Source: Burkholderiales bacterium
Lineage (GTDB): Bacteria > Pseudomonadota > Gammaproteobacteria > Burkholderiales > Casimicrobiaceae
Assembly: GCA_025925475.1 (NCBI GenBank)
Contig: JAICLP010000003.1
Span: 1 to 35,140, forward strand
Direction: 5' to 3'
DNA length: 35,140 bases
In this document: positions 1,019-31,743 of the stretch, in pieces
Numbering within the stretch: the first letter of the stretch is position 1
Layout: each line of letters opens with the position of its first letter
The notes under the pieces: model-generated
Databases searched by the model: none
Told to the model about the DNA's origin: nothing
What the model saw: the letters and a program-made list of their open reading frames with translations, nothing else
Position numbers and translations under genes: made by a program

Positions 1019-1086
1019 ACGTTAGGACGGCGGACGTGATGCGTCAATGAGGCCCACCGAGTCTTACTTGATACACTTTGCGCATC
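1019..1086 (-). promoter_or_regulatory. Site A: predicted sigma70 promoter with upstream LTTR box for the carboxyltransferase operon
   Basis: Minus strand: dyad GATGC-GCAAAGT-GTATC (1086-1070), 22 bp, -35 TTGACG (1047-1042), 17-bp spacer, -10 TAACGT (1024-1019), then ATG at 966. Same layout as sites B and C. Confidence 0.65.
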
Positions 1087-2022
1087 GTGGCCAGGACCCG
1101 TCACCCGTTGCTGCATCCGCGGCAGATCGAGGCGATCGTCACCGTCGCCCGCGCCGGATCGGTGCACGCGGCGGCACGGCTGCTGCACATTCCGCAGCCC
1201 GCCCTTTCGCGGCTGATCGCCGCGTCGGAGAAATCGCTCGGCGTCGCGTTGTTCGAGCGCTCGCGGGCCGGCACGCGCCCGACCGAGGCCGGCGAGCGCG
1301 TGCTGAAGCAGGGCGCGTTCGCGCTGCAGGCGCTGCAGGGCATCGCCGAGTCGGCCCGCGAGTCGCTGCCCGTCGTCCGCCTCGGCTGCATCCCACGCGT
1401 CATGCACGTGCTGATCCCGCACCTGCTTGCGCAATTGAGCAACGACGATGCGGGCTTCCGCCTCCATGTGTCGGTCGGCACGTCGAACGAGCTCGCCGGC
1501 GACCTCGATGCGGCACGGCTCGATTTCGTCATTGCACGCCGGGCGGCGCCGGGCGTCGTGGCGGCGCCCGACCTGCAGGCGGAGAAGCTTTACTCGGAGC
1601 GAACGGCCGTCGTATGCGGGCGCAGCAACAAGGACGTGCAAGCGGGCGCGGGCTCGCTGCGCATTCGCGACCTCGTCGCGTTGCCATGGGTGCTGCCGAA
1701 GCGCGGCTTTCACTCGCGTGACCTGCTCGACGGCATCGTGGCCGCGCACGGACTGCCGCCGATCGTGCCCGTCATCGAGTCGAATTCGTTCGAGTCGAGC
1801 CTGTCGATGGTCGCGTGGACGCGCTTCCTCACGCTCGCACCCGAGTTCGCCGCGCGACGCTTCGAGCAGTTGCGGCTCGTGCGCCTAATCGCAATGCGGC
1901 CGACGCTCGGATCGAGCCCGATCATGCTCGAGTATCGACGCATTCAGCAGCAGCATCCGGCGTTCCCGGCGTTCCGCGCGTCGGTATTGCGCGCGACGCG
2001 TCAGATCCACGCAGGCGCCTGA
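1078..2022 (+). CDS. LysR-family transcriptional regulator
   Basis: N-terminal wHTH RQIEAIVTVARAGSVHAAARLLHIPQPALSRLIAASEKSLGVALFERSRAGTRPTEAGE, followed by a LysR substrate-binding domain. Exact start uncertain (TTG 1078, GTG 1087 or TTG 1108). Confidence 0.93.
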   Translation: MRIVARTRHPLLHPRQIEAIVTVARAGSVHAAARLLHIPQPALSRLIAASEKSLGVALFERSRAGTRPTEAGERVLKQGAFALQALQGIAESARESLPVVRLGCIPRVMHVLIPHLLAQLSNDDAGFRLHVSVGTSNELAGDLDAARLDFVIARRAAPGVVAAPDLQAEKLYSERTAVVCGRSNKDVQAGAGSLRIRDLVALPWVLPKRGFHSRDLLDGIVAAHGLPPIVPVIESNSFESSLSMVAWTRFLTLAPEFAARRFEQLRLVRLIAMRPTLGSSPIMLEYRRIQQQHPAFPAFRASVLRATRQIHAGA

Positions 2023-2034
2023 TCACGCGCCTGC
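2011..2034. repeat. 24-bp near-perfect palindrome at a convergent gene junction (GCAGGCGC-CTGATCAC-GCGCCTGC)
   Basis: 8-bp perfect arms. The loop TGATCA contains the back-to-back stop codons of LysR (+) and the M20 hydrolase (-). No T-tract. Confidence 0.75.
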
Positions 2035-3303
2035 GCCGAGCAGCGCGCGGACGAGCACCCGCAGCGCGAGGCGGAAGTCGGCGAGCTGCATCGCCTCGCG
2101 CGGATTGTGCGAGCCGCACTGGTTGCGGATGAACAGCATCGCCGCCGGAATGCCGGCGTGCGCGAAGACGGCCGCATCGTGGCCCGCGCCGCTCGGCATG
2201 CGCAGCGATGCAATGCGCTCCTCGTTGCAAATCTGCTCGAAACGATTCACCCATTCCGGATCCATTGCGGCAGGAAGGTTGACGATCGGCTCGTCTAACG
2301 CGAAGGAAACGCCGCGCCGTTCTGCGACCGCCGCTGCTTCGGCACGCGCGAGGTCGTGAAACGCAAGGAGCTGCTCTTCATTCTCGGCGCGAATCTCGAG
2401 GCTCGAATCGACCGCACCCGCGACGCGCGAAATCGCGTGCTCGCGCGGATCGGTGCCCACGATGCCATGCGTGACCGTGATCTGGCGGCCGGCTTCGAGC
2501 CACTCGCTCCAGCGCGCGTCGAGGCGAAGGATGAAGTCCGACACCGCGACGACCGCGTCACGCCGCAGCGAACGCGGCGTTGCGCCCGCATGCGCCGGCT
2601 CGCCCGTGCAGCGGATCCGGCGATGGCGCAGGTTGCCGTAGATCGACGTGACGATGCCGAGCGGCACGTCGCGCGCCTCGAGCACCGGGCCCTGCTCGAT
2701 ATGCACCTCGAGAAACGCGATCATTGCACCGGGGCGCAGCAACGGCTCTCGCGCGGCGATCGCGCCGACATCGGCGTCGACGTCGCGCAGGTGCTCGAGC
2801 AGCGTGCGTCGCGTATCGGACCGGCGCTGAGCGAGATCGGCGTCGGAGAGAAGCCCGAGCAACGCGTGCGAGCCGATCCACGACTTGCCGAACCACGCGC
2901 TCTCTTCGCCGCGCAATGCGAGCAATCGAACCGCTCGCGGCGGCGTGATGCCATTGCGCGCCAGAAGCGCAAGCGCGAGTAGGCCCGCGACGACGCCCGC
3001 CGCACCATCGTAGTTGCCGCCGCACGGAACGCTGTCGAGATGCGAGCCGACGCCGATGAATCGGCCGTCGTTTTCGCGGCCGGGCAGCGACACGACAAGA
3101 TTCGCGGCGCCGTCGCGCTCGACGCGAAGGCCGTCGGCGCGCGCGAATCGGGCGATCACTTCCTGCGCCGCGGTCTCGCGTGCGCCGAACGCTTCCCGCG
3201 TGACGCCTTCGCCGTCGCGCGATGCGCGGCGAAGCTCCGCGAATATCTGCTCGGCCACCGGCAGGAGCTCGGCCGTCTTCCGCGAGAGGTCGAGGCCTTC
3301 CAT
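2023..3303 (-). CDS. M20-family Zn-dependent amidohydrolase (N-carbamoyl-L-amino-acid hydrolase / allantoate amidohydrolase-like)
   Basis: MEGLDLSRKTAELLPVAEQIFAELRR...GVGSHLDSVPCGGNYDGAAGVVAGLLAL...LRGEESAWFGKSWIGS...LEVHIEQGPVLE...PSGAGHDAAVFAHAGIPAAMLFIRNQCGSHNPREAM. The ORF track merges an upstream extension; start chosen at 3303. Confidence 0.88.
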   Translation of the reverse strand: MEGLDLSRKTAELLPVAEQIFAELRRASRDGEGVTREAFGARETAAQEVIARFARADGLRVERDGAANLVVSLPGRENDGRFIGVGSHLDSVPCGGNYDGAAGVVAGLLALALLARNGITPPRAVRLLALRGEESAWFGKSWIGSHALLGLLSDADLAQRRSDTRRTLLEHLRDVDADVGAIAAREPLLRPGAMIAFLEVHIEQGPVLEARDVPLGIVTSIYGNLRHRRIRCTGEPAHAGATPRSLRRDAVVAVSDFILRLDARWSEWLEAGRQITVTHGIVGTDPREHAISRVAGAVDSSLEIRAENEEQLLAFHDLARAEAAAVAERRGVSFALDEPIVNLPAAMDPEWVNRFEQICNEERIASLRMPSGAGHDAAVFAHAGIPAAMLFIRNQCGSHNPREAMQLADFRLALRVLVRALLGAGA

Positions 3304-3311
3304 GGCGTCGG

Positions 3312-4202
3312 CTAACGCTGGGCCGGCTCCGGCGGTGGCTCGACCTTCCGGTACCAGTCGGCGATCTCGCTGCCCGTCATGAAAATCGTGTCGCTGCGCT
3401 CCTTGAGCAGCCGCAGCGCCTTCGCGAGGTACGGCAGCCGATGCGGCACGCCGACCTGGTGCGGATGCAGTCCCAGCGACAGCACGCGCGGCTGGCTCTC
3501 GAGTTCGTGCTCGTACGTGGCGAGCGTGTCCTGGACGCGCGCAAGCAGGTCGGGCGATGCCTGCCGCTCGACCGTGTACACGAGGCTGTCGTTGAGCTCG
3601 AACGCGTAGGGCATGCAGATCATCGGCCCGTGCTTCGTCGTCATCCAGCACGGCAGGTCGTCGACGATCCAGTCGAGGTTGTACTCGATGCCGTGCTTGC
3701 GCAGGTAATCGGGCGTGTCGAACGTCTGCGCGAAGCCCGGGCCCATCCAGCCGCGCACCGGCTTGCCGGTGAAGTCGCGCACCTGCGCGAGCGCCTGCTC
3801 GATCACCGCTTCCTGGTTCTGCTCGCGGTTGAGCAGCCGCTGCACGACGCCGTGGCCGACGAACTCCCAGCCCGCCTCCAGCATGGCGTGCGCGAGCGTC
3901 GGGTACTGCGCGATCACCTGCGAATTCAGGTTGACGCTCGCGGGTATCCCGAGTGCGTCGAACAGCGCGAGGATGCGCGGCATGCCGCAGCGCAAGCCGT
4001 ATTCGGCCCAGCACCAGTTCGGGATGTCGGGGACCGTCTCCATGCCGTGCGGCGTGCTCAGCGTCTTGCGCGGCATCGGCTGGTCGAACGGCCAGTACTC
4101 GACGTTCATGATCACGTGAACGATCAGCGGCTTGCCGGGCCGCGGCGGCGGCAATCGCTTGCGATCGCTCGCCAACTGAAATGGCACGCGGGGATTCGTC
4201 AT
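3312..4202 (-). CDS. Polysaccharide deacetylase family protein (PuuE/allantoinase-like)
   Basis: VHVIMNVEYWPFDQPMPRKTLSTPHGMETVPDIPNWCWAEYGLRCGMPRILALFDALGIPASVNLNSQV...GHGVVQR...GWMGPGFAQTFDTPDYLRKHGIEYNLDWIVDDLP. CAGGAGAG SD before ATG 4202. Confidence 0.85.
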   Translation of the reverse strand: MTNPRVPFQLASDRKRLPPPRPGKPLIVHVIMNVEYWPFDQPMPRKTLSTPHGMETVPDIPNWCWAEYGLRCGMPRILALFDALGIPASVNLNSQVIAQYPTLAHAMLEAGWEFVGHGVVQRLLNREQNQEAVIEQALAQVRDFTGKPVRGWMGPGFAQTFDTPDYLRKHGIEYNLDWIVDDLPCWMTTKHGPMICMPYAFELNDSLVYTVERQASPDLLARVQDTLATYEHELESQPRVLSLGLHPHQVGVPHRLPYLAKALRLLKERSDTIFMTGSEIADWYRKVEPPPEPAQR

Positions 4203-4254
4203 GGCAACTCTCCTGCTGTATTGCGTGGCTGGACTGGCGGCGCAGCTGCCGGCT

Positions 4255-5697
4255 TCATCCGACGATCGCGCCCTGCGCGCGCAAATCGCTGCGGAGCCGA
4301 TCGACCGGCACTGCCCGCGGCTCGATGCGCCGTTTCGCGGCCAGCGCGGCGGCAACGCCCGCTGCATGCCCGTATGCCATGCATTGCGCGCCCATCCGCG
4401 CTGACCCGATCGCCTCGCGGGTCGCGGACAGACAACGGCCCGCGACGAGCAGCCCGTCGACCCGCTCCGGCACGAGGCAGCGATACGGAATGTCGTAGTC
4501 GCCGCCGTCGGGCACGAACAGGTGCTGGCGCGTGTTCGGCTGCTCGGGCGATTGCACGCTCATCGGATACGCACCGCGCGCGATCGTGTCGTCGAAGCGC
4601 TTGCGCGCCTCGATGTCCGCGCGGGTCAGCATGTATTCGCCGCGTACACGTCGCGATGCGCGAATCGAAACCGACGGCGACACGCTCTGCAGGAAGCAGC
4701 CGCGAAACCCGGGAACGTAGCGGCGCAGCACGTCGACCGCGAGCTGCAGCTGCCGGTGCCCCTCACCTTCGGCGCGGCTCAATTGGTCGGCGCGCGTCGC
4801 ATCGAACGTGATGCTCGTCGCGTTGAGCGTCACGATGTCGTCGCGCTGCGCCACCGGCATGATGCTGAAGCGGCTCGCGAACGGCCTCAGGCGGCCCCAT
4901 TGCGCCTTGTCCTCGCCGGTGATTTCCCATTCGGCCCAGTCGGATCTCGGAACGTAGTCGCGCACCAGGTTCGACAGATAGATGTATGGGCAGTCGTAGA
5001 TATCGCGCACGCGCTCATGCATGACGCGCCGCGCATCGAGTCGCTTGACGTCGCGCAGGTAGGGATCGGCGAGCAGGACGATCCTGTGCGGCGACGCGCG
5101 AACGTCGTCGATGAACGCCTGCGTGTCGACGCCGGCGACGCGAAACAGAAGCGTTGCATTCAACGTCGCTTCGGGCACGTCCTGCTCGTACGCAGCGCCG
5201 GCGCTCGCGGCCACGTCGGCATCGCCGGTCGCATCGACGAACACGCGCGCGCGAAGCTCGTGCGGACCGGACTTGTTGAAGACGCGAATCGCGCGCAGCG
5301 TCGCATCCGGCGCGTCGGCACCCACGAACATCGTATGCAGCCAGACGTGAAGCTGCGCCTCGCTCGCCATGTCGAGCAGCGCGAGCTTCATCGCATCGGG
5401 GTCGACCGGCGTGAACGAACCGCCAATGCCGGTGGGATTCGGCAGGTGACCGCCGGGGCGCACGCCGCCGCGCTGCTCGAGCCGCTCGACGAGCTGTTGC
5501 GCGAGCCCGGCGACGACCGCCTCGCCGCGGCTGTTGTGGAACGGTGTCACGTTGGCGAGCGCATGGCAGGTTCCGCCGAGGTAGCCGCCCTTCTCGACGA
5601 TGCACGTGCGCGCGCCCGAGCGTGCGGCCGCGATGGCGGCCATCGAACCGGCAGTTCCTCCACCGACGACCACGACGTCGAATTCATGGGACGGCAT
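4255..5697 (-). CDS. FAD-dependent oxidoreductase
   Basis: FDVVVVGGGTAGSMAAIAAARSGARTCIVEKGGYLGGTCHALANVTPF (GxGxxG Rossmann) ... VFVDATGDADVAASAGA ... VDGLLVAGRCLSATREAIGSARMGAQCMAYGHAAGVAAALA. Strong SD GGAGGTGATTTCG-ATG. Confidence 0.88.
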   Translation of the reverse strand: MPSHEFDVVVVGGGTAGSMAAIAAARSGARTCIVEKGGYLGGTCHALANVTPFHNSRGEAVVAGLAQQLVERLEQRGGVRPGGHLPNPTGIGGSFTPVDPDAMKLALLDMASEAQLHVWLHTMFVGADAPDATLRAIRVFNKSGPHELRARVFVDATGDADVAASAGAAYEQDVPEATLNATLLFRVAGVDTQAFIDDVRASPHRIVLLADPYLRDVKRLDARRVMHERVRDIYDCPYIYLSNLVRDYVPRSDWAEWEITGEDKAQWGRLRPFASRFSIMPVAQRDDIVTLNATSITFDATRADQLSRAEGEGHRQLQLAVDVLRRYVPGFRGCFLQSVSPSVSIRASRRVRGEYMLTRADIEARKRFDDTIARGAYPMSVQSPEQPNTRQHLFVPDGGDYDIPYRCLVPERVDGLLVAGRCLSATREAIGSARMGAQCMAYGHAAGVAAALAAKRRIEPRAVPVDRLRSDLRAQGAIVG

Positions 5698-5728
5698 CGA
5701 AATCACCTCCGGCCAGGCGCGCGCTTCA

Positions 5729-7501
5729 TCATTCACCGAGCTGCGACAGCGTCGCGACGACGACCTCGCACGCATCGTCGACTGCATCGGCAACGCGGTT
5801 GCGTTCGCGGCGCAGCTGCGTCCCGAGCAACAGCCACGCCTCGCTTCCGCGTTCTGCATCGAGCCAGCCGGCGACATCGTAGAGGCACGGTATCGCCGAA
5901 AGCTGCGGCGTGAATCCATACGGATCGTGCCCGTACACGCCCTTCACCGTGCTCTGGATCGGAATCAGCGTGTTCGACAGACGCTTCAGGCACCGATTGA
6001 TGAGCGCGGCGGCGCCCTGCGAATCGGCATCCTGGGCACGATAGCGATTGCGCCACCGGCTCGCGGCTTCGTCGACGCGCGCGACGCCGCGCTCCAGCTC
6101 GCGCGAGCGTGCAGCGACCTCCGCGAGTCCAAGCAGGTTTTCGCCATCACGCCGAGCGAGATCCTCGAGACGAATCGCGAACTGCTGCGCGACGGCGGTG
6201 AAATCGAACGGCAGGATCGGCGCGGTGCAGAGGTTCCAGAGCCACGCCGCGTAGACACGCAGGTGCGGTTGCATCCATGCGAAATCGACCTTGTCGGCCG
6301 TGCATTCGAGCGAGTGATGCCACCAGCCCAGGTTCGCGTCGGCGCTCGCGTGCAGCTCCTGCTGCGTGAACGCGCCCATGCCGTACAGCATCGGCACGCC
6401 GAGCCCGAAGAACGACGCGTCGCCCCCCTTCTTCTGCGGCTTCCAGTCGCTCGGCACCTGGAGATAGCGCCGCTCGACGCCCTGGTGGAAGCGGCGCATC
6501 TCGAGGTTCGACGTCGTCAGCCAGCGTGTGGTGCCCGTGCACGCCGGCTGATCGATCAGCAGGTAGGCAATCGCATGCCGGCGCAGCCGGTCCCAGTTGC
6601 GATCGACGAACCATGTCGAGCCCGCCATCGTGCCGGTCTCGTGCGCGGTCCAGAAGCCGAAGAGGATTCCGCGCGCGAGCCCGTCGCGGTGCGCATTGAA
6701 AACTCGCGCGAGCTCGACCATGCAGCCGTTGCCGGCCGCGTTGTCGGTCGCGGCGGCCCCGTACCACGAATCCTGGTGGCCGCCGACGATGACGAAGTCC
6801 TCGCTTTGCGGCGCCTGAATCTCGCCCACGGTGATCTGCACGGGACGCCAGACGTTGTCGACGTCCGTCTCGATCGCGACTTCGACGCGGCCGCTCGCGC
6901 ACAATTCCTTGAGCATCAAACCGGAACTGCGCGACACGCCGACCGAAGGCAGCCGCGGCATCTCGTCGCGCCATGTCTGCGGGGTCGGATTGCCCCATGC
7001 CGGCTTGATCGAGCCGAAGGGCAGCGACGTATCGGTAGGCGAGCCCCAGTTCATCATCACGGCACCGATTGCGCGATGGTTCGCGGCGATGCGCTGCTTT
7101 TCCATCCGCGCCGGTGAATAGGAGATCTCGCAGAGCACGATCTTCCCGGCGACGTCCTTGCCCGCGAGATCGGACTCGCTGCCCGATCCGACGTAGACGA
7201 GGTCGCCTCGCAGTGCGCGACCGGACGTCTCGACGCTGTGCCCCGACGTGAACGCATCGATGGCGAGCCTGCGCGGTGCGAGAACGCTGAGCTTGCCGGC
7301 GCGCGGAAAGCTGACGAGCGCCTCGAGCTCCTGCACCGCGGCCTCGACGCCGACTGCACGCAACGCGTCGGCGTTGTAGCGCGCCATCCGCAACGCGTTC
7401 TCCGATCCTGCGAGGCGCGACGGAATGTGCTCACAGACGTACTCGACGTAGCGGCGCACGTTGTCCGCCGATACGCTTTCCACCACCTGCGTTTCGCTCA
7501 T
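5729..7501 (-). CDS. M28-family peptidase-like protein (PA domain plus aminopeptidase-like domain), noncanonical general-base position
   Basis: VIVGGHQDSWYGAAATDNAAGNGCMVELARVF...FGFWTAHETGTMAGSTWFVDRNW...YLLIDQPAC...GWWHHSLECTADKVD. Overall M28/GCPII-like fold order of metal ligands. Confidence 0.85.
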   Translation of the reverse strand: MSETQVVESVSADNVRRYVEYVCEHIPSRLAGSENALRMARYNADALRAVGVEAAVQELEALVSFPRAGKLSVLAPRRLAIDAFTSGHSVETSGRALRGDLVYVGSGSESDLAGKDVAGKIVLCEISYSPARMEKQRIAANHRAIGAVMMNWGSPTDTSLPFGSIKPAWGNPTPQTWRDEMPRLPSVGVSRSSGLMLKELCASGRVEVAIETDVDNVWRPVQITVGEIQAPQSEDFVIVGGHQDSWYGAAATDNAAGNGCMVELARVFNAHRDGLARGILFGFWTAHETGTMAGSTWFVDRNWDRLRRHAIAYLLIDQPACTGTTRWLTTSNLEMRRFHQGVERRYLQVPSDWKPQKKGGDASFFGLGVPMLYGMGAFTQQELHASADANLGWWHHSLECTADKVDFAWMQPHLRVYAAWLWNLCTAPILPFDFTAVAQQFAIRLEDLARRDGENLLGLAEVAARSRELERGVARVDEAASRWRNRYRAQDADSQGAAALINRCLKRLSNTLIPIQSTVKGVYGHDPYGFTPQLSAIPCLYDVAGWLDAERGSEAWLLLGTQLRRERNRVADAVDDACEVVVATLSQLGE

Positions 7502-8907
7502 GGCTGCACGTCAAGCGGCGGGCGCCGCAAGTGGTGATCGGTGGCGCGCTCGAATGCGGCCGCAATGCGCAGCAGCAATGCCTCCTGAAGATCGCTGGCG
7601 ACGATCTGCAAGCCCACCGGCATGCCGAGCGCGAAGCCGCAGGGGACCGACACCGACGGCGCGCCGACGAAGCTGAATGGCAGGTTGAAGCGGCGCCCCA
7701 GCGCCCAGACCTCGGGCGGCGCCGTTTGCAGCGGCGTCACGTTCGGCAGCACCGGTGCGAGCAGCGCGTCGACCTTGCCGAAGACCTGCTTCACCGCCGC
7801 CGATTGCTGCGGGCGCTCGGCGAGGATGCGCTCGTACGTCGCGCGCGACACCTGTGCGCCGCGTTCGATGTCCGAGTGCACGGCGGGCCCGAACAGGCGC
7901 TTGTCGGCGGCGCGGTAGCGCTCGCCGAGGATCTCGTGAAACTCGTAGAGCAGCACGTCGCGAAACAGCGCCGAGTATTCGAGGGCGCCCGTGAGCTCGG
8001 GGATGGTCACGGTTTCGATATGCGCGCCAAGGCTCGCGAGCACGTCGACGGCCGCCCGCAGAACGCGCTCGACCTCCGGGTCGATGTCGTCGAATGTGTA
8101 CCGGTCGATCACGCCAAGGCGCAGCCCGCGCACGCCCGCGTCGAGGTCGCGCGTGAAATCCTCGGGGGGAGCGTCGAGCGACGAAACGTAGTCGGGATCG
8201 TATCCCGCGAGGGCGTTCATCATCAGCGCCGCGTCCTTCACGCAACGCGTCATCGGCCCGGCGACGCCGAGCGTGCGCGTGCGCGGCCATACGCCGGCGA
8301 GGCTCACGCGGCCGAACGTCGGACGCAGCCCGAAGATGCCGCAGCGACTCGCCGGCTGGCGGATGGAGCCACCGGCATCGGTCCCGATTCCGGTGAGGCA
8401 CATGTCCGCTGCGAGCGCTGCGCCGTTGCCGCTCGACGAGCCGCCCGGCGCGCGGGCGAGGTCCCACGGGTTGTGCACGTTGCCGTAAAACACGTTGACG
8501 CCCGACGAGCCGGACGCGAATTCGCTCATGTTCGCCTTGCCGAGCATCACCATGCCGGCGTCGCTCAGCCGGTGCACCATCGCGGCGTCGCGCTCCGGTA
8601 CCCGCGCACGCATCAGCGCGGAGCCGACCGTGCTGCGCACGCCGGCCGTGTCGAGATTGTCCTTGTAGACGACCGGGATGCCGTGCAGCGGACCGCGGTC
8701 GCGCCCTGCGCGAAGCTCGTCGTCGAGCGCCTGCGCGCGCGAAAGCGCGTGCTCGTCCGTGACGGTGATGAACGCGTTGATCTTCGGCTGCAATGCACGG
8801 ATACGCGCGAGGTATGCGCGCGTCAGGTCGGTCACGCTGTACGCGCCATCGCGCAGTGCCTGCGCGGCCTCGTCGATCGAGCGCGGTAGTGAGACGTTCT
8901 CGTTCAT
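7498..8907 (-). CDS. Amidase signature family (Asp/Glu-tRNA amidotransferase A-like) amidohydrolase
   Basis: IPVVYKDNLDTAGVRST...APGGSSSGNGAALAADMCLTGIGTDAGGSIRQPASRCGIFGLRPTFGRVS; K-S-S triad context present. 4-bp ATGA overlap with the downstream M28 gene. Confidence 0.93.
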   Translation of the reverse strand: MNENVSLPRSIDEAAQALRDGAYSVTDLTRAYLARIRALQPKINAFITVTDEHALSRAQALDDELRAGRDRGPLHGIPVVYKDNLDTAGVRSTVGSALMRARVPERDAAMVHRLSDAGMVMLGKANMSEFASGSSGVNVFYGNVHNPWDLARAPGGSSSGNGAALAADMCLTGIGTDAGGSIRQPASRCGIFGLRPTFGRVSLAGVWPRTRTLGVAGPMTRCVKDAALMMNALAGYDPDYVSSLDAPPEDFTRDLDAGVRGLRLGVIDRYTFDDIDPEVERVLRAAVDVLASLGAHIETVTIPELTGALEYSALFRDVLLYEFHEILGERYRAADKRLFGPAVHSDIERGAQVSRATYERILAERPQQSAAVKQVFGKVDALLAPVLPNVTPLQTAPPEVWALGRRFNLPFSFVGAPSVSVPCGFALGMPVGLQIVASDLQEALLLRIAAAFERATDHHLRRPPLDVQP

Positions 8908-8914
8908 CGTCGTT

Positions 8915-9925
8915 CTAACTGCCTTTCAATTGCTGCACGGGTCCCGGGAAGAACATGTCCTTCCACGATTCGGGCCGCACCTTGATGACGCCCGTGCGGT
9001 GCATGAAATCGACGTAGCGCATGACACCCTCCGGCGCGAGCGAGTAGCGCATGTCGGGCTGGTCGAAGATGCGCACCACCTCGTCGACGCTCATCTTCTC
9101 GCCGGCCATGCGCAGGAAGATCCCGGCGACCGCCTTGTGATCGTGGTTGATGAGATCGATTGCTTCGGCGAGTGCCGCGTAAACCGCCGCGTACGTCTTC
9201 GGATTCGCGTCGTGAAACCGCTTCGTCGTCCACATCATCAGGAACGTCGCCGGTCCGCCGAGCACCGCGTTCGAGTCGAGCACGCGGTGAATTCCGTGCT
9301 GCTTCAGCACATCGGCCTCGTATTGAAACGGTGGACCGGAGAACTGCGAGTCGATCTCGCCTTTGGACAACAGCGCGGCGAAGCCGTCGGGCAGCGACAA
9401 CGCGACCGTAAGCGGGTCGAGCTTTTTCGGATCGCCGAACGCCTGCTCGGCCGCCATCTGCAGCACGACCGCCTGATCCGACACCTTCGCGCCCGGCACC
9501 GCGATGCGGTCGCCCGGCCCGAAGTCGCGCACGCTCTTGACGTTAGGGTTGCGCGTCAGCAGGTACATCGGCGCGGCGTTCATCGCGGCGACACCCTTCA
9601 CTTCAACCGCTGAGCCGCGCGTTCGTGCCCACAAAACGGCGAACGGCGGCGGGCCCCCGCCGGCGAAGTCGACCTGTCCTGCGAGCAGCGCGTCGTTCAT
9701 CGCCACGCCGCCGCTGAACTTGAACCAGCTGACGCTCACCTTGCCGAGGCCCGCGGCGGCGGCGTGCTTCTCGATGAGCTTGCGATCCTCCATGACCATC
9801 GACGGCAGGAAGCCGAGCGAGAGTCCGCGCGACATGTGCACCTCGGTCACTTCCGCCAGCGCGGGCCGTGACGACGTCGACGCAAGCGCGACGAATGCAA
9901 GGATCAGGGTGGAAGCAATGCGCAT
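8915..9925 (-). CDS. ABC transporter substrate-binding protein, NitT/TauT (NMT1/SsuA-like) family (SBP1)
   Basis: Signal peptide MRIASTLILAFVALASTSSRPALA, then EVTEVHMSRGLSLGFLPSMVMEDRKLIEKHAAAAGLGKVSVSWFKFSGGVAMNDALLAGQVDFAGGGPPPFAVLW... C-terminus ESWKDMFFPGPVQQLKGS. GAGGAAAG SD before 9925; alternative start 9940 overlaps the thioesterase stop (ATGA). Confidence 0.88.
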   Translation of the reverse strand: MRIASTLILAFVALASTSSRPALAEVTEVHMSRGLSLGFLPSMVMEDRKLIEKHAAAAGLGKVSVSWFKFSGGVAMNDALLAGQVDFAGGGPPPFAVLWARTRGSAVEVKGVAAMNAAPMYLLTRNPNVKSVRDFGPGDRIAVPGAKVSDQAVVLQMAAEQAFGDPKKLDPLTVALSLPDGFAALLSKGEIDSQFSGPPFQYEADVLKQHGIHRVLDSNAVLGGPATFLMMWTTKRFHDANPKTYAAVYAALAEAIDLINHDHKAVAGIFLRMAGEKMSVDEVVRIFDQPDMRYSLAPEGVMRYVDFMHRTGVIKVRPESWKDMFFPGPVQQLKGS

Positions 9926-9936
9926 CGAATCTTTCC

Positions 9937-10896: not shown

Positions 10897-10920
10897 GATC
10901 GCCGCTTCACCGGGCAGCGA

Positions 10921-12567: not shown

Positions 12568-12582
12568 GCGTGTCTCTGCAAG

Positions 12583-14703: not shown

Positions 14704-14709
14704 CGCGTC

Positions 14710-16430: not shown

Positions 16431-16466
16431 GTTCGGCTTCAGTCGGTCAACGGGTTGCGAGCGGCA

Positions 16467-17249: not shown

Positions 17250-17253
17250 TTCG

Positions 17254-18234: not shown

Positions 18235-18258
18235 GATAGTCTCCTCCTCAAAGTCGCA

Positions 18259-18274
18259 CGCGGCGCGCGCCGCG
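18259..18274. repeat. Perfect 16-bp GC palindrome CGCGGCGCGCGCCGCG between SBP3 and SBP2
   Basis: Self-reverse-complementary sequence in the 86-bp gap between two same-strand SBP genes. Confidence 0.7.
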
Positions 18275-18320
18275 CCCGGGCTCGATGGCACTTGTCCGCG
18301 AGCGTTTGATTCGAATGCGC

Positions 18321-19319: not shown

Positions 19320-19365
19320 GGCTCTCCTCCGTAATGTTTATAGTTGGATGCGGGTTAACCAAACT

Positions 19366-22253: not shown

Positions 22254-22285
22254 GCACGGAAGGCGTCAGCTGCCTGTCGTCGCTA

Positions 22286-22354
22286 ACGTTAGGCGCCATC
22301 CGATAATGCTGTCAATGAGGCCAGAAACGACTTGCCTGATGCATTCTGCACATC
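22286..22354 (-). promoter_or_regulatory. Site B: predicted sigma70 promoter with upstream LTTR box for the 16-gene operon
   Basis: Minus strand: GATGT-GCAGAAT-GCATC (22354-22338), 22 bp, TTGACA (22315-22310), 18-bp spacer, TAACGT (22291-22286). Plus-strand GTCAATGAGGCC is identical to site A. Confidence 0.68.
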
Positions 22355-22426
22355 ACGTCCACCTCGGCTGCCTGGCGGCGGGCCGGGCCTCGATTCGCGC
22401 TGCGGGCGACGCGGCTTACGCCGCGC

Positions 22427-23215
22427 TCAGATCGTTCGCGTCTGCCCGCCGTCGACGTTGAACGACACGCCGGTCACGAAGCTCGCACGATCCGACGCGA
22501 GGAACGCGATCGCCGCGCCGATCTCGGCGGGATCGCCAAAGCGCCGCAAAACGATGTCGTCCGTGAAAGCCGAACGTGCTTCGTCTGTCGACACGCCCTC
22601 CTCGCTCGCCTTGCGGGCGACCAGGTAGCGCATGCGATCGGTATCGGTCGGCCCCGGATTGACGGCGTTGACGAGAACGCCATGCGGCGCACCCGCTTCG
22701 GCGAGTCCCTTGGCAAGGCTCAGCAGCCCGGCATTGATCACGCCGGCCGTCAGCACTTGCGCATGCGGTTGCCGCCCGTGCGTACCGGCGATGAACACGA
22801 TCCTTCCGTATCCGCGCGCGACCATGCCTTGCCAGACCAGGCGCGCCTGGCGCGCCTGCGTCACGAGCTTGCTGTCGAAGGCGATGCGCCAATCCTCGTC
22901 GGTCAACTGCTCGAAGGGCTTGACGAGAGTTCCGGGCGAATTGGCGACGAGGATGTCGATGCGCCCGAAGCGGCTTTCGGTGTCGCGGACGAGCGCCTCG
23001 ACGTCGGCGGCAACGGTGCAGTCGCCTGCCTTGGCAAGCACGTCGGATGCACCTGCAACGCGCAGATCGCGCACGCATTGCTCGAGACGATCCGGATCGC
23101 GCCCGGATAGCGCAATGCGGGCGCCGCCGGCGGCAAGCTCCAGTGCGGCGGCACGGCCGAGGCCGCCGCTGGCGGCAGGAAGCAGCGCAACCCTGTTCCC
23201 GAAATCGAGCTTCAC
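22427..23215 (-). CDS. Atypical SDR family protein (lacks YxxxK)
   Basis: GTG start at 23215, AAAGGA SD. KLDFGNRVALLPAASGGLGRAAALELAAGGARIALSGRD...IDILVANSPGTL...HAQVLTAGVINAGLLSLAKGLAE...VNAVNPGPTDTDRM...FVTGVSFNVDGG. Confidence 0.87.
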   Translation of the reverse strand: MKLDFGNRVALLPAASGGLGRAAALELAAGGARIALSGRDPDRLEQCVRDLRVAGASDVLAKAGDCTVAADVEALVRDTESRFGRIDILVANSPGTLVKPFEQLTDEDWRIAFDSKLVTQARQARLVWQGMVARGYGRIVFIAGTHGRQPHAQVLTAGVINAGLLSLAKGLAEAGAPHGVLVNAVNPGPTDTDRMRYLVARKASEEGVSTDEARSAFTDDIVLRRFGDPAEIGAAIAFLASDRASFVTGVSFNVDGGQTRTI

Positions 23216-23265
23216 CGCGAAGTCCTTTCGTTCGAAAGCGAAGGGGCGAACACGCTTCGCTTGCC

Positions 23266-24249
23266 CTATCGCTTCAGGGCAGGCAACTGCACCGCCTCGG
23301 GTTTGATCTCCTTCAGCAGCGCGGGATAGAACCAGCTGTCGAGGTCGAATTGACCGGGCTTCACGCGCCCCTTCGCAACGAGTTGATCGACGATGCGGTT
23401 GCTGACCGCATACGCGTCGCTGCCGAGCACGAACGTGTAAGTGCACTTCGGCATGATGGAGTCCATCAGGTTCGTCGGCAGGTTCAGCAGCTTGCCGACG
23501 ATCTGCTTCGTCTTCTCGGGCTCGCGGTTGATGAAATCGTTCGCTTCGTCCATCGCCTTCATGAACCTGATCGCCGTCGCACGGTTCGCGTCGATCCACT
23601 TGCGGCTCATGTAGACGAAACCGACGTCCTGCACCGTCCCGAGATTGTCGGTCAGCACCTTCGTGGCGGGCACGTTGAGGACCGCTCGCGATATCCAGGG
23701 CTCCCATGCCGAGAACGCCTGAACGTCGTTGCGCTCGATCGCCGCGACCATCTCGGGCGGCTCCACGTTGACGAGCGAGCCCTTGAAGTCGTCGGGATTC
23801 AGATGATCCCGCTTCAATGCGTCATACCAGTAGCTCTCGCTCGCATTGCCGACGGTGACGGCGATCTTCTTGCCCTTGAGATCGGCGAGCGACTGGATGT
23901 CGCGCTTCGCGACGATGCCATACAGCCGGTCATAGCGGACGACCTGCGCGACTGCGACGATGTCCGCGTCCTTCAGATGGTTGTTGATGCCCGCGAGCGA
24001 CGCGGCAACGGACGCATTGGAAGCGCCCGAAAGCAGCAGCGGCACCATCGCGCCACCCGACGGACCGGTGCGCATGTCCACGTCGAGGCCGTTGCGTTCG
24101 AAGAAGCCTCCGAGCTTGGCTACGTAGACAATCGAGAAGCCGGGATCGACGCCGGTAGCGACGACCATCTTCGCCATCTCCGCCGCGGATGCGCAAATCG
24201 ACACGGCAAGGCCCAGAAGCGGAAGTACGATCAAGCGCCAGCGTGACAT
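23266..24249 (-). CDS. ABC transporter substrate-binding protein, NitT/TauT family (SBP4)
   Basis: MSRWRLIVLPLLGLAVSICASAAEMAKMVVATGVDPGFSIVYVAKLGGFFERNGLDVDMRTGPSGGAMVPLLLSGASNAS... AAGGAGGACTC-ATG. ORF-track start is far upstream; start reassigned. Confidence 0.9.
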   Translation of the reverse strand: MSRWRLIVLPLLGLAVSICASAAEMAKMVVATGVDPGFSIVYVAKLGGFFERNGLDVDMRTGPSGGAMVPLLLSGASNASVAASLAGINNHLKDADIVAVAQVVRYDRLYGIVAKRDIQSLADLKGKKIAVTVGNASESYWYDALKRDHLNPDDFKGSLVNVEPPEMVAAIERNDVQAFSAWEPWISRAVLNVPATKVLTDNLGTVQDVGFVYMSRKWIDANRATAIRFMKAMDEANDFINREPEKTKQIVGKLLNLPTNLMDSIMPKCTYTFVLGSDAYAVSNRIVDQLVAKGRVKPGQFDLDSWFYPALLKEIKPEAVQLPALKR

Positions 24250-24376
24250 GAGTCCTCCTTGCTGTCCGGCGGTGGACTTCGATGGAGCGTCGGTGCAGCG
24301 CTCGCTCAGGCGAAGTGCCGCACCGAGGCTGGGCGGTGAACGATATACCTGCGCTCGCGGGTTCGCCAGCGGCGCA

Positions 24377-24390
24377 TCGGCGGCCGCCGA
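24377..24390. repeat. Perfect 14-bp palindrome TCGGCGGCCGCCGA between SBP5 and SBP4
   Basis: Self-reverse-complementary sequence in the 155-bp gap, the largest gap within the second operon. Confidence 0.65.
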
Positions 24391-24404
24391 CGACTCGGGA
24401 GCGT

Positions 24405-25412
24405 CTAGCTTCCCGACAGCTTGTCGATTTCGGGATCCGGGAAGAAGCAATCCTTCCACGACGTGGGCATCGTCTTGATGCGGCCCGCCTTGTGCAGGAA
24501 TTCGGCGTAGCGCAGCAGGCCGCTCGGCGCCAGCGAGAACTGGATCGCATTCTTCTCGAGCGGCGCCAGGATCTCCTCCATCGTGAAGCCCTTCGCGCGC
24601 TCCTGGAAGAGAAGGGCCGCAGCGCGCTTGTCGCGGTTGATGATGTCGTCCGCTTCCTTCAACGCGTCCACGAAAGCACGGTAGATCTTCGGGTTTTCCC
24701 GCCGGAACTTCTCGGTCGTCACGAACACGTTCTGCGTTGCGGGGGCGCCGAGGACGTCGACGGTGCTGAGCACGGTATGCACGCCCGGCTGCGCCAGTTC
24801 CTTCGTCGAATAAGGTTCCGACGCGAAATTGGCGTTGACGTCGCCGCCCGACAGCATCGTGACCAGCGCGTCGGGGCTGCTCAGGGAAACGGTGAGCCGG
24901 TCGAGCTTGTGCAGATTGTCTTCTCCGAACGCCTTCCCTGCTGCGAGCTGCAATTGGATCGCCGCGACCGAAATGCCGACGCTCGGCACTGCGATCTTGT
25001 CCTTGTCGGTGAAATCGCGAATGGAATGAACGGATGGGTTGCGCGTATTGAGGAAGAGCAGCTCGTTGTCGACGGCGGCGACGATGTGGACGTTTTCGCG
25101 GCCTCGCGTCTTGTCCCACAACATGATCGACGCGGGCGGTCCATTGAGCGTGAAGGCGACATCGCCCGAAAGCAGCGCGTCGTTCTCCGGCCCGGCGCCG
25201 GCGAACGACACCCATTCGACCTTCAGATCGAGGCCCTGCGCCTTCGCATGCTTCGCGATCAGCTGCTGCTTGTCCATGACGAACGTCGGCAGCTGCCCGA
25301 GACTGTAAGCGCGACCGACTTTGATGGTCGTCGGTTCCGCGCCTACGGCGAACGCCGCGCCCGCAGCGAACAATGCGAGCAGCGTTGCAATGGCCCATCT
25401 TGACGTCCTCAC
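24405..25412 (-). CDS. ABC transporter substrate-binding protein, NitT/TauT family (SBP5)
   Basis: GTG start with GGAGGAAAC SD. AEPTTIKVGRAYSLGQLPTFVMDKQQLIAKHAKAQGLDLKVEWVSFAGAGPENDALLSGDVAFTLNGPPASIMLWDKT... C-terminus TSWKDCFFPDPEIDKLSGS. Confidence 0.9.
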   Translation of the reverse strand: MRTSRWAIATLLALFAAGAAFAVGAEPTTIKVGRAYSLGQLPTFVMDKQQLIAKHAKAQGLDLKVEWVSFAGAGPENDALLSGDVAFTLNGPPASIMLWDKTRGRENVHIVAAVDNELLFLNTRNPSVHSIRDFTDKDKIAVPSVGISVAAIQLQLAAGKAFGEDNLHKLDRLTVSLSSPDALVTMLSGGDVNANFASEPYSTKELAQPGVHTVLSTVDVLGAPATQNVFVTTEKFRRENPKIYRAFVDALKEADDIINRDKRAAALLFQERAKGFTMEEILAPLEKNAIQFSLAPSGLLRYAEFLHKAGRIKTMPTSWKDCFFPDPEIDKLSGS

Positions 25413-25461
25413 GTTTCCTCCTTGGCAGCTGTCGTTTGAAGGTAGATCGAGCGAAAAGAGA

Positions 25462-26529
25462 TCAACCGGCAGTGCGGCCCGCCGACAGCAGCGCTTCGAC
25501 GTTGTCCATCCCGGGCTTCAATTCGTTTCGCTCCATACGGTGAACGATCTGCGTAATCGCCTCGTGCGTCGGCGCTCGATGGCCGGTTGCTGCAGCGCGA
25601 GCCGCGACATAGCCGCCGAGGTAGTCGACTTCGGTCCGGCGTCCCTTGCGCAAGTCCTGCGCGATGCCGGTGCGGCCTCCCTCGAGGCTCGTCGCCTGCC
25701 ACGTTGCCATCGCGGCTTCGAGGCGCAGAAGCGACGATCGCTCGCCACGCTCGGCCGCCACGTAGTCGTCGGGAGACGTTCCGAATATCGGCTCCAGCGC
25801 AAAGCCGAGTGCGTGGCCGAGGCCGACCGCCTCGGCCGCGAGGCGAATGACGAGCCGGCGTGCCTGCGACTGCTCGTACATCTCTTTCAGCGTCAAGCCG
25901 GAGATGGCGGCGACCGGCGACGTCATCGAATTGGCGACGAGCTTCGACCAGCGCTCGCCCCACAGATTCGTCGTGACGCGAGCGGTGTCGACGTTCTGCA
26001 ACAGCGCCGCTACGCGCTCTGCGCGGCGCGTTGGCCGTCCATGAATCTCGCCGACACGAAACGTGTCATGGAGCGTTCCACCGGGTGGATTCGTGCGGCG
26101 GATATGGCCCGGTTCCACCAGTTCGACCTGAAACCGGCTGACGACGCAACCGATCACGCGCGGCCAGCCAACGACCTGCGCGACATTCTCCTCGACCAAT
26201 CCATTTTGCATCGTCACGACGAAGCCGGACTCGGACAGGTAGGGGGCTATCAATGCGGTCGCCCAGCGCGTGTCGTAAAGCTTGACGCTGACGAAGGCCA
26301 CGTCGACCCGTCTGTGAATAAGCGTCTGGACATCGCACACGTGCAGTGCGGAGAGCGCGACGTGCCGCTCGCCGTCCATGCCATCGAGTTTCAACCCACG
26401 CGCGCGAATGGCTTCGACGTGCGCTGGCCATGCATCGACAAGCGTCACGTTCGATCCAGCCTCGGCGAGGAGCCCGCCGACGAATCCGCCGACAGCCCCA
26501 GCACCGACGATCACGACATGCGGATTCAC
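25462..26529 (-). CDS. Ketopantoate reductase (ApbA/PanE) family protein
   Basis: GTG 26529: NPHVVIVGAGAVGGFVGGLLAEAGSNVTLVDAWPAHVEAIRARGLKLDG...VDVAFVSVKLYDTRWATALIAPYLSESGFVVTMQNGLVEE...LWGERWSKLVANSMTSPVAAISG. Confidence 0.87.
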   Translation of the reverse strand: MNPHVVIVGAGAVGGFVGGLLAEAGSNVTLVDAWPAHVEAIRARGLKLDGMDGERHVALSALHVCDVQTLIHRRVDVAFVSVKLYDTRWATALIAPYLSESGFVVTMQNGLVEENVAQVVGWPRVIGCVVSRFQVELVEPGHIRRTNPPGGTLHDTFRVGEIHGRPTRRAERVAALLQNVDTARVTTNLWGERWSKLVANSMTSPVAAISGLTLKEMYEQSQARRLVIRLAAEAVGLGHALGFALEPIFGTSPDDYVAAERGERSSLLRLEAAMATWQATSLEGGRTGIAQDLRKGRRTEVDYLGGYVAARAAATGHRAPTHEAITQIVHRMERNELKPGMDNVEALLSAGRTAG

Positions 26530-26542
26530 GCCCGCGCCTGCG

Positions 26543-28195
26543 TCATGCGATTGCCAGGCCGCCGCCGCCGCGCGGGTCCGATCCTCCGTTGAATGCACCG
26601 TCGGCCCCGCGCATCGCAACGAAAACGAGCGCGAATGCGCGGTCGTAGCCTTTCGCCGAAGGACGCAGCCGCCATCCTTGCGCCTCGAGCTCGTCACGCA
26701 GGCGCCAGTACAGGCGGCTTTCCATCTCCAGCCACGGGCCTTCCGCGTGAAATCGCGCCGCATCGACGGCTTCCGTCGGTCGCATGCCGTGCTCGACGAT
26801 GTTGCAGAACGTGTTGACGATCGCGGTCGGCATGCGCGTCCCACCGAGCGCTCCAAGCGCCATCCACGGCGCCGATTCCTTGAAGACAAGAGTTGGGGCC
26901 GCACCGGTGAGGCGACTTTTGCCGGGAGCGATCGAATTGGGATGGCCGGGAAACGGATGAAACTGATACATGCAGTTGTTGTAGACGAACCCCAATCCGG
27001 GCGTCACGACGCCTGAAGCGGAGCCGAGCGTGTGCGTCAGCGATACGGCGTTGCCCTCGCCGTCCATCGTGCACACGTGCGTCGTATGGCGCGACTCGGA
27101 GTATTCGAGCGAATCGACCGAGATTGCGCTTTCCCCTTCGACGAGTGCCGCCAGGTCGCGGGCGTGTGCCTTGCCGAGCAGCCGATCGACCGGCACGTCG
27201 ACGAAGCGCGGATCGCCGAGAAAGCGTGCGCGATCGGCGAAGGTGGCCAGCATCGCGCGGCTCACCCGATGAACGTAGCGCGCCTCGTCATCTCGTCGCA
27301 GTCCGGCAATGTCGAACTGCTCGAGAATGTTGAGCAGCTCGATCACCTGGATGCCGCTCGCCGGCAGCGGCGAGCTCTCGATTCGCAGTCCTCGGTAGGA
27401 CCCGCTGACGGGGCTCGCCACATCCGGGCGATAGCCGGCGAGGTCCTCGCTCGTGAACAGGCCGTCGTTGCGCAAGAAATCGTTGGCGATCGTCTGCGCG
27501 ATGTCGCCTCGATAGAAATCGTCGGCGCCCGCCTCGGCGATTCGCGCGAGCGTGGATGCGTAGTCGGGCTGGCGCAGCATCTCGCCCGGCTTCAGCACGC
27601 TGCCGCCGGGAGCGAAGATCGCCGCACACGCCGCCGTTGCCCGGATACGCTCGAGACCCGATTTGTGACCGGGCTCGGTAAGGTCGGTCCAATGCGCGTA
27701 AACCTCGCCGGGCAATGGAATACCGTCACGCGCGAGACGGATCGCGGGCTCGAGAAGAACCTTCCACGGAAGGCGGCCAAAGGCGCGGTGGGCTGCATCG
27801 AAACCGGCGAGGACGCCGGGAACCACCGGCGAGCGATATCCGATCTGATTGACCGCCGCTTCTACTTCGTAACGCTCCGCATGCCCGTGAATCTGACCGA
27901 CGACATCGTCCGCGAACACGTCGGAGCGCGCCTTGGATCCCGCGCGGCCGTGATAGCTGACCGCGGTCGTGCGCCGATTGCGGGCGTCGTGAACGAGCAT
28001 GCAGCCGAAGCCCCCGATGCCGCCGTTGAATGGATCGACGACGCCCTGCGCAAACGCCGTGGCGATGGCGGCGTCGAGTGCATTGCCGCCATCGGCGAGG
28101 ATCGCAGCGCCGACGCTCGCCGCCGCCGGCTGCGGTGCGACGACGACGCCTTTCCGTTGCATTCCGCCAGGTTGCGGACCGCCGGCCGAGGGCAT
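26543..28195 (-). CDS. Gamma-glutamyltransferase family protein
   Basis: GVVVAPQPAAASVGAAILADGGNALDAAIATAFAQGVVDPFNGGIGGFGCMLVHD...SRHTTHVCTMDGEGNAVSLTHTLGSASGVVTPGLGFVYNNCMYQFHP (nucleophilic Thr context) ... GALGGTRMPTAIVNTFCNIVEHGM. Confidence 0.93.
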   Translation of the reverse strand: MPSAGGPQPGGMQRKGVVVAPQPAAASVGAAILADGGNALDAAIATAFAQGVVDPFNGGIGGFGCMLVHDARNRRTTAVSYHGRAGSKARSDVFADDVVGQIHGHAERYEVEAAVNQIGYRSPVVPGVLAGFDAAHRAFGRLPWKVLLEPAIRLARDGIPLPGEVYAHWTDLTEPGHKSGLERIRATAACAAIFAPGGSVLKPGEMLRQPDYASTLARIAEAGADDFYRGDIAQTIANDFLRNDGLFTSEDLAGYRPDVASPVSGSYRGLRIESSPLPASGIQVIELLNILEQFDIAGLRRDDEARYVHRVSRAMLATFADRARFLGDPRFVDVPVDRLLGKAHARDLAALVEGESAISVDSLEYSESRHTTHVCTMDGEGNAVSLTHTLGSASGVVTPGLGFVYNNCMYQFHPFPGHPNSIAPGKSRLTGAAPTLVFKESAPWMALGALGGTRMPTAIVNTFCNIVEHGMRPTEAVDAARFHAEGPWLEMESRLYWRLRDELEAQGWRLRPSAKGYDRAFALVFVAMRGADGAFNGGSDPRGGGGLAIA

Positions 28196-28198
28196 TGC

Positions 28199-29002
28199 TT
28201 ACGCGTCGCGCGATGTGCGAGTCGGGAATGACTCGAGGAAACGCCGGACCTCGCTTGCGATTCGCTCGGAGGTTCTCGTCGCGATCTGCTCGCCAAGTTC
28301 AGGCGACGTGATAGCCGGGTCGCCGAAAAAGCCATCGGTAGGTGCCATTTCTTCGATGTTCAGGACGGCACGAAACGGAAACGAGCGCAGCAAGTCCATG
28401 CGGCCGCGATCGGGTTTCTTGCGCTTGTCCATGCGTACCGAATTGCCGGCATGCGCTTCCGCGATCGACAGCTCGACCGACCCTCCATGCCCGTCGGCAC
28501 CGTAGCTCAGGTCCTGTTGCTCGAGATGCTTCGCCGCATCGGGGCCGAGCACCTCCTTGAGCCGGCCCCGATTCGCGTCCTGGTAGCACATGTACAGCAC
28601 GTGGGTCTCCGAGTCCCACGCGGCCTCCTGCAAACCCGAAATCGCCGCGTGATCGTTGCCGCGATGGCCGCTGATCGCAAGAACCAGGCGATAGCCGTCG
28701 CGGATGAAGTTCCCGCAGATCTCCTGCAGGAAATGCGCGTAGGTGCTGGGGCGCAGCGCGATCGTGCCCTTGAAGTGCCTCTGGTCGAAGCACATGCCGA
28801 AGGGAACGGCGGGTGCGAGGATGGCATCGAGCTGCTCCGCGACCTTGCGCGCGACGATCCGCGCCGCGAAGGTGTCGGTACCCATCGGGCCATGCGGTCC
28901 ATGCTCCTCGGTCGAACCGAGGGGAAGCACGACGATTCCCGCTCCGTCCTTCAAATAATGCTCGACCTCGTCGAAGGTCATCCGGTCAAGTTCGCGTAAC
29001 AC
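28199..29002 (-). CDS. Creatininase family protein
   Basis: GIVVLPLGSTEEHGPHGPMGTDTFAARIVARKVAEQLDAILAPAVPFGMCFDQRHFKGTIALRPSTYAHFLQEICGNFIRDGYRLVLAISGHRGNDHAAISGLQEAAWD...DGHGGSVELSIAEAH. Confidence 0.9.
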   Translation of the reverse strand: MLRELDRMTFDEVEHYLKDGAGIVVLPLGSTEEHGPHGPMGTDTFAARIVARKVAEQLDAILAPAVPFGMCFDQRHFKGTIALRPSTYAHFLQEICGNFIRDGYRLVLAISGHRGNDHAAISGLQEAAWDSETHVLYMCYQDANRGRLKEVLGPDAAKHLEQQDLSYGADGHGGSVELSIAEAHAGNSVRMDKRKKPDRGRMDLLRSFPFRAVLNIEEMAPTDGFFGDPAITSPELGEQIATRTSERIASEVRRFLESFPTRTSRDA

Positions 29003-29020
29003 CGTCCAGTCTCCTTGCTC

Positions 29021-30025
29021 TCAGTTTCCGGGAAGCGTCGCGACGATCGGATCCTGGAAAAAATAATCCTTCCACGAATTCGGCATCGTCTTGATGGTTC
29101 CGATCTTGTGCAGGAATGCCGCGTACTTCATCGTCTGCAGCGGCGTCATCGAATGCTGGATCTTGTTCTCTTCCAGCACCTTGTGGATTTCGTCGAAGGA
29201 GAAGCCCTTCGCCTGCTCGACGAAAACCTGTGCGGCGGCCTTCTTGTCGCGGTTGATGATCTCGTCCGCTTCCTGTAGCGCCTCGACGAACGCGTGGTAG
29301 ACCTTCGGATTCTCGCGCCTGAATTTCTCGGTCGCCACGAACACGTTCAGCGTTCCCTGACCCCCCAGCGTCTCATCGGAGGTCAGCACCGTATGGACGC
29401 CCGGGTGGGCGAGCTCGCGCGTCGAATAAGGCTCGACGGTGAAATGGCTGTTGACCTCCGAGTTCGAAAGAAGCGCGCTCATGCCGTCGGGGTTGGACAG
29501 CGAAACGGTGAACGGATCGAGCCTGTGCAACTCGTTCTCGCCGAGCTGCTTCGCAGCGGCCATCTGCAGCTGGATCGCCGTGACCGAGACGCGCACTGCC
29601 GGCACCGCGATCTTGTCAGCCGACGTGAAGTCCCGAATCGATTTGACGTTCGGGTTTCGCGTGTTGAGGAACATGGTTTCGGCATCCAATGCCGCGACCC
29701 CGCGCACCTGTCCGTGCGTCTTGTCCCAGAGGATCAGCAAGCCCGGAACGCCGTTCGCGGTGAAGGCGACGCTTCCCGAGAGCAGTGCATCGTTCTCGGC
29801 CGCCGCACCGGCGAACTTGTGCCACTCGACGTCGAGGTCGATGCCCGCGGCCTTCGCGTGCTTTTCGACCAATCGATGCTTTTCCATCACCATGGCCGGC
29901 AGCTGCCCCAGGCTGAAAGAGCGCCCGATCTTGATCGACGTCACCTCGCCAAGCGAGGCGGAAGAAAACACCATCGCGACGGACGCAAGCAACAGCTTGC
30001 GCATGGCGGACGCGCGCGCATCCAT
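29021..30025 (-). CDS. ABC transporter substrate-binding protein, NitT/TauT family (SBP6)
   Basis: ATG 30025 with GGGAGGG SD. EVTSIKIGRSFSLGQLPAMVMEKHRLVEKHAKAAGIDLDVEWHKFAGAAAENDALLSGSVAFTANGVPGLLILWDKTHG... C-terminus NSWKDYFFQDPIVATLPGN. Confidence 0.9.
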   Translation of the reverse strand: MDARASAMRKLLLASVAMVFSSASLGEVTSIKIGRSFSLGQLPAMVMEKHRLVEKHAKAAGIDLDVEWHKFAGAAAENDALLSGSVAFTANGVPGLLILWDKTHGQVRGVAALDAETMFLNTRNPNVKSIRDFTSADKIAVPAVRVSVTAIQLQMAAAKQLGENELHRLDPFTVSLSNPDGMSALLSNSEVNSHFTVEPYSTRELAHPGVHTVLTSDETLGGQGTLNVFVATEKFRRENPKVYHAFVEALQEADEIINRDKKAAAQVFVEQAKGFSFDEIHKVLEENKIQHSMTPLQTMKYAAFLHKIGTIKTMPNSWKDYFFQDPIVATLPGN

Positions 30026-30093
30026 GCAGCAGACCCTCCCCCGTTGATTCAAACGGCAGCGCCGACGGACACCGCCTGCGGCTTGCATTGCGC

Positions 30094-30164
30094 ACCGTAG
30101 GACGTCTGCGGCATCGATGTCAAATGATGGCGAAATCTCGTTTACCCGATGCCTTTCGCGCATC
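30094..30164 (-). promoter_or_regulatory. Site C: predicted sigma70 promoter with upstream LTTR box for the 7-gene SBP6-creatininase-GGT operon
   Basis: Minus strand: perfect dyad GATGC-GCGAAAG-GCATC (30164-30148), 24 bp, TTGACA (30123-30118), 18-bp spacer, TACGGT (30099-30094). Box lies inside the last codons of the MFS gene. Confidence 0.66.
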
Positions 30165-31377: not shown

Positions 31378-31705
31378 GCAATCTCCCGCCCGGACGCTAC
31401 GCCCGATGTCAGGAGCAGAGCTTGGACACGAGGACTGTCTTGGGAAACGGAAACGGGGAGTCTGCCCGCGCCCCCGCGAGCGAACTGTAGCGCGACAAGG
31501 CGACGGCGACAAATGCCGAGCGCGCAGCGGCCCTCCCCAGCCGCAAATGGCAGGCGCTGAAGCGCTCACGCGACGACGAGTTGACGCCTGTCATCATTTG
31601 CTGACGCCAGGCAGCACTCGACAGGAAGCGTTGTCGCAGCGACGCCCGGTAAAACCGCATCAAGCGGCATTGGTACGTCCCCTGCTTCTCGCCACGCTCA
31701 TCTGA

Positions 31706-31734
31706 ACGACGTCGAGACGTCGTCTCGCGCGAGG
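31706..31734. repeat. Nested palindromes immediately upstream of the PBP gene
   Basis: ACGACGTC-GA-GACGTCGT (31706-31723), overlapping GAGAC-GTC-GTCTC, followed by CTCGCGCGAG. Confidence 0.6.
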
Positions 31735-31743
31735 AAAGCAGGC

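Follow-up and report, generated by a model that had tools for sequence, protein, structure and literature searches.

Three operons of a Burkholderiales bacterium probably share the recognition sites of one LysR-type regulator

Introduction

LysR-type regulators (LTTRs) are generally described as binding a T-N11-A anchor site near position -65 and a second site around the -35 and -10 elements, and divergent, autoregulated target genes are common among them (PMC8407307). For lactam catabolism, a described arrangement is the caprolactam cluster of Pseudomonas jessenii, in which genes for an ATP-dependent lactamase of the HyuA/HyuB type, an omega-aminotransferase and a semialdehyde dehydrogenase lie together; the paper that describes it mentions no LysR (PMC6061476).

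Here we analyse a window of 35,140 nucleotides (the whole stretch of DNA under study, from contig JAICLP010000003.1) of a Burkholderiales MAG. Its one LysR gene and three sites on the minus strand resemble the general RBS/ABS model of LTTRs in having a T-N11-A dyad near -65, a regulator divergent from a target, a candidate second site overlapping the -35 element and likely autorepression (PMC8407307). The locus differs from that model in a half-site, GATGC/GCATC, that is specific to this LysR subfamily, in the presence of three operons within 30 kb, and in a lysR start codon that stands directly at the dyad. Its second operon is like the P. jessenii cluster in holding HyuA/HyuB-type, aminotransferase and aldehyde dehydrogenase genes (PMC6061476), and differs from it in having many extra genes and in HyuA/HyuB scores below the caprolactamase cut-offs.

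Results

Three sites of similar layout

The features on which the argument rests are as follows.

1-966, minus strand: carboxyltransferase gene, first gene of operon A (Pfam Carboxyl_trans, 4.1e-52), cut by the contig start
1019-1047, minus strand: predicted target promoter A (TTGACG, 17 bp, TAACGT)
1070-1086, minus strand: recognition dyad of site A, GATGCGCAAAGTGTATC, with T-N11-A; abuts the lysR GTG
1087-2022, plus strand: lysR, LysR-type regulator of 311 aa with a GTG start (Pfam HTH_1 and LysR_substrate)
2023-22253, minus strand: operon B, about 15 genes, its extent inferred from strand and spacing
22286-22315, minus strand: predicted promoter B (TTGACA, 18 bp, TAACGT), with GCATT 28 bp past the dyad
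22338-22354, minus strand: recognition dyad of site B, GATGTGCAGAATGCATC
22427-30025, minus strand: operon C, 7 genes, operon status inferred
30094-30123, minus strand: predicted promoter C (TTGACA, 18 bp, TACGGT), 24 bp past the dyad
30148-30164, minus strand: recognition dyad of site C, GATGCGCGAAAGGCATC, overlapping the last codons of an MFS ORF (30142-31569)

The three sites read as a preliminary description had given them, including TTGAC(G/A), the three -10 hexamers and the stretch common to A and B between box and -35 (GGCCTCATTGAC). The same description placed a T-N11-A dyad about 65 bp upstream of each predicted transcription start, and we find the dyads centred at about -66 to -69. 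Its claim of an identical architecture at all three holds for A and B, where the distance from dyad to TTGAC(G/A) is 22 bp, but is too strong for C, which has two extra bases ahead of TTGACA (24 bp) and TACGGT. When A, B, C and an orthologous site described below are aligned, GATGYG, GYATC (ATC), TTGAC and CCTA fall in register.

In A, in B, in the ortholog and in a 41% homolog in genome G154, the dyad is followed after 27-28 bp by a GCAT half-site; at promoter A it begins as GCATCA at 27 bp and is a possible activation half-site. We consider it a candidate for the second, weaker LTTR site near -35 in these four. No GCAT half-site stands at this distance in C, which with its 24-bp spacing and its overlap with the end of the MFS ORF is the weakest of the three sites. 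The promoter assignments themselves stand in part: the -35 elements are present, but the -10 hexamers match TATAAT at no more than three of six positions and, because a strict sigma-70 scan called none of these promoters, the -10 assignments stay weak. Promoters that go uncalled in strict scans fit dependence on an activator, which falls short of proof.

Rarity of the pattern

The three sites together lie well outside what chance would produce. The host genome was searched by pattern scans. The full pattern GATGYG-N6-GYATC-N22..24-TTGAC has three matches in the 3.37 Mb assembly, exactly A, B and C, so that the random-position matches that might have weakened the proposal do not occur; a reversed-pattern control gave none in the host and three over all listed genomes. 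The 20-base dyad pattern GATGYGCN5GYATCRRG likewise matches exactly at A, B and C only, and the looser GATG-N10-ATC-N21..25-TTGAC adds one other place. Among 398 other genomes of the order the full pattern has five matches, one per genome. None of these, nor the match in genome G183, nor the fourth host match of the looser pattern, has a homolog of these LysRs nearby, and the five were set aside as chance. The dyad and architecture patterns were fitted to A, B and C, and held-out tests therefore weigh more. At 84% completeness, the host MAG may lack further sites or another regulator.

The orthologous locus

We found a single close ortholog of the LysR (66% identity). It belongs to the Betaproteobacteria MAG FW602_bin.15, at locus L051, where its gene is divergent from an 84% identical carboxyltransferase (8895-9860). 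In the intergenic region there, the dyad is conserved at 16 of 17 positions (GATGCGGAAAGTGTATC, L051 9994-9978, minus strand, also abutting a GTG), as are the 22-bp distance, TTGACA and CCTAAGGTT, and the sequence between these has diverged; 22 bp past the dyad stands TTGACAGCATCA, and the promoter is TTGACA, 17 bp, TAAGGT. This site is the pattern's single match in the ortholog's 5.9 Mb genome. A second candidate at L051 20771 was rejected, having no TTGAC downstream. Downstream of the orthologous lysR, on the same strand, follow genes for an ABC ATPase, a permease, a binding protein, an FAD oxidoreductase and an M20 peptidase; the FAD oxidoreductase and M20 genes have clear homologs in operon B (68% and 61%).

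Conservation of the dyads in orthologous loci is thus seen for site A, in this one close ortholog and as a similar layout in the 41% homolog; no orthologous promoter was found for B or C. Further close orthologs of the LysR did not appear in 100 relatives, 399 genomes of the order, 199 relatives of the ortholog's genome or 369 genomes of the class. It is a rare regulator: all 21 congeneric genomes searched lack it, and plasmids held no homolog above 39-40%.

Held-out scans

In a scan of 70,242 window positions with a 20-nt matrix built from A and B, C comes third, right after A and B themselves, with 18.0 bits against 11.6 for the next place. Conversely, a matrix from B and C places the ortholog site first of 41,684 positions. 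Of 300 simulated windows, 9 contained a place that reached the score of C's dyad, or about p = 0.03 per window, and of 300 simulated loci 20 reached the score of the ortholog site under the B+C matrix; the dyad alone is therefore modest evidence. The comparison over 72 nt is stronger evidence. With A and the ortholog as query over 70,138 window positions, the best other places are B (42) and then C (30), the next unrelated place scoring 21; with B and C as query in L051, the orthologous site comes first (28 versus 16 for the next).

In one alternative, the LysR regulon comprises A and B alone, and C is a fortuitous dyad at the end of the MFS gene that happens to have a TTGACA nearby. The 24-bp spacing, the missing GCAT half-site and the coding overlap would all fit such an origin, as would the simulated frequency of C's dyad, which is not very rare per window. 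Yet among non-self places in the A+ortholog scan only B scores higher than C, which lies on the right strand just ahead of an operon start and is one of only three full-pattern matches in the host assembly. We consider this alternative unlikely; of the three operons, C is the one whose control by the LysR is least certain.

More distant homologs

The 41% LysR homolog in genome G154 faces different targets, namely TauD, enolase-type and TctC genes. Between the homolog's gene and these targets, at L088 10279-10355, stand GATGCCTGCTAGGCAT(A), with GATGC-N7-GCAT, a distance of exactly 22 bp and TTTACAGCAT, and TATGCT follows TTTACA after 17 bp. In the 72-nt scan this site leads only narrowly (18.5 versus 18.0). 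The composite ATGY-N7-GYAT-N23-TTNACAGCAT, a pattern written after the G154 site had been seen, matches in 3 of 399 genomes of the order: at site B, at the G154 site, and at one AT-rich locus (31.5% G+C) that has no LysR homolog. Regulators that have the site share the HTH segment SVHAAA. No matching dyad came up in matrix scans of two further LysR homolog loci, one in Variovorax (39%) and one in genome G071 (37%), so the motif is confined to part of the subfamily. At L089 3744-7838 in G071, the surroundings of the 37% LysR homolog include a 71% carboxyltransferase and a GGT homolog but no such dyad; we take this as a related locus with a different operator.

A further alternative is that the shared sequence is a promoter element of some other regulator and that lysR lies next to A by accident. 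LysR binding at the sites is predicted, and the host MAG is incomplete; however, both other genomes with a related site have it in the divergent region of a LysR homolog, its occurrence in the surveyed order follows that homolog, and a T-N11-A at about -66 is the known LTTR layout (PMC8407307). We therefore regard this explanation as very unlikely. Still more improbable is that promoter A was recently duplicated to give B, and perhaps C, as copies retained without a function: A and B do have GGCCTCATTGAC and CCTAACGTT in common, more than the ortholog keeps there (alignment score 24 for A-B, 28 for A-ortholog), but they have diverged between the shared blocks while the dyad, -35 and -10 region are kept, the copies stand at operon heads, and an origin by duplication is compatible with function.

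The regulator and its own promoter

The LysR matches Pfam HTH_1 (2.6e-19, 69.4 bits) and LysR_substrate (1.3e-27, 97 bits), both above cut-offs, and the host genome holds no second LysR relative at E<=1e-40. Its best NCBIfam match is PcaQ (TIGR02424; 121.5 bits, E 3e-35), an LTTR of the same broad group. An assignment as PcaQ was rejected, since 303.8 bits are needed; the target genes here also differ, not being protocatechuate genes.

The GTG of lysR is the only start candidate in common with the ortholog. Dyad A leaves no room for a ribosome site ahead of it. Read on the plus strand, dyad A contains TACACT preceded by TGA, that is TGATACACT, right before the GTG (1069-1087), and both TGATACACT and the GTG are kept in the ortholog. 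It is possible that TGATACACT serves as an extended -10 element of lysR, with transcription starting within a few bases of the GTG, and lysR may be nearly leaderless. LysR bound at dyad A would then be expected to repress its own gene.

Gene content of the operons

Operon A runs off the end of the contig, whose length is exactly 35,140 bases, and operon B, announced as 16 genes in the preliminary description, has about 15 by our count. Operon B encodes ALDH, a class III aminotransferase, NMT1-type binding proteins, an SDR, an ABC ATPase, a permease, HyuA and HyuB (caprolactamase-like), a binding protein, an amidase, an M28 peptidase, an FAD oxidoreductase and an M20 peptidase. Operon C encodes an NMT1_2 binding protein, a creatininase-family amidohydrolase, a gamma-glutamyltransferase, an ApbA-type reductase, two NMT1-type binding proteins and an SDR.

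Together the genes suggest lactam or amide catabolism. HyuA and HyuB score 498 and 214 bits, both below the NCBIfam caprolactamase cut-offs of 1000, and an assignment as caprolactamase CapAB was rejected; for the same reason a lactam or cyclic amide as substrate is only a guess. Between 8915 and 30025 lie about six NMT1-type substrate-binding proteins, with one ATPase/permease pair in the window. It may be that one transporter serves several of these binding proteins. Two minus-strand ORFs (639 and 147 aa) at 31660-34098, upstream of the MFS gene, have no Pfam match.

Discussion

We propose, with a probability of roughly 0.78, that the LysR encoded at 1087-2022 uses A, B and C as its recognition (anchor) sites and would control all three operons. 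The single regulon suggested in the preliminary description thus gains support from the rarity of the pattern, the held-out scans and the conservation of site A. Taken singly, operon A belongs to the regulon very probably, operon B nearly as probably and operon C probably. The operator appears to be conserved along with its regulator, as site A in the 66% ortholog and as a similar site in the 41% homolog.

In the mechanism that we envisage, one dimer of a LysR tetramer would sit on the GATGC-N7-GCATC dyad, near -66, and the other would occupy a weaker site around -35, marked by the GCAT half-site in A and B. The second dimer would move once an effector is bound (we suppose a lactam, an amide or one of their breakdown products), allowing RNA polymerase to use a good -35 element with a poor -10. 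Site A would thus activate the carboxyltransferase operon, site B the lactam/amide operon, and site C the operon with binding-protein, creatininase and GGT genes. The dyad of site A also lies across the likely lysR promoter, where bound LysR would repress lysR.

More tentatively, and at rather less than even odds, the regulator may represent a new LTTR subfamily, defined by the SVHAAA helix, GATGC-N7-GCATC, the 22-bp distance and TTKACAGCAT, whose site doubles as the extended -10 element of a nearly leaderless regulator gene and whose regulon grew in this lineage by promoter copies placed before two further amide/lactam operons.

A LysR switch over three operons is probably an ordinary kind of bacterial control, here unusually well supported by comparison of sequences. 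Its value would lie in providing a specific operator for an uncharacterised regulator and in joining as one unit three operons whose genes include lactamase-like, amidase, aminotransferase and transport functions; this would aid pathway assignment in an uncultured betaproteobacterial lineage. With one site in the ortholog's genome, and some operon-B homologs directly downstream of lysR there, the locus may also offer a small, clean case of regulon growth.
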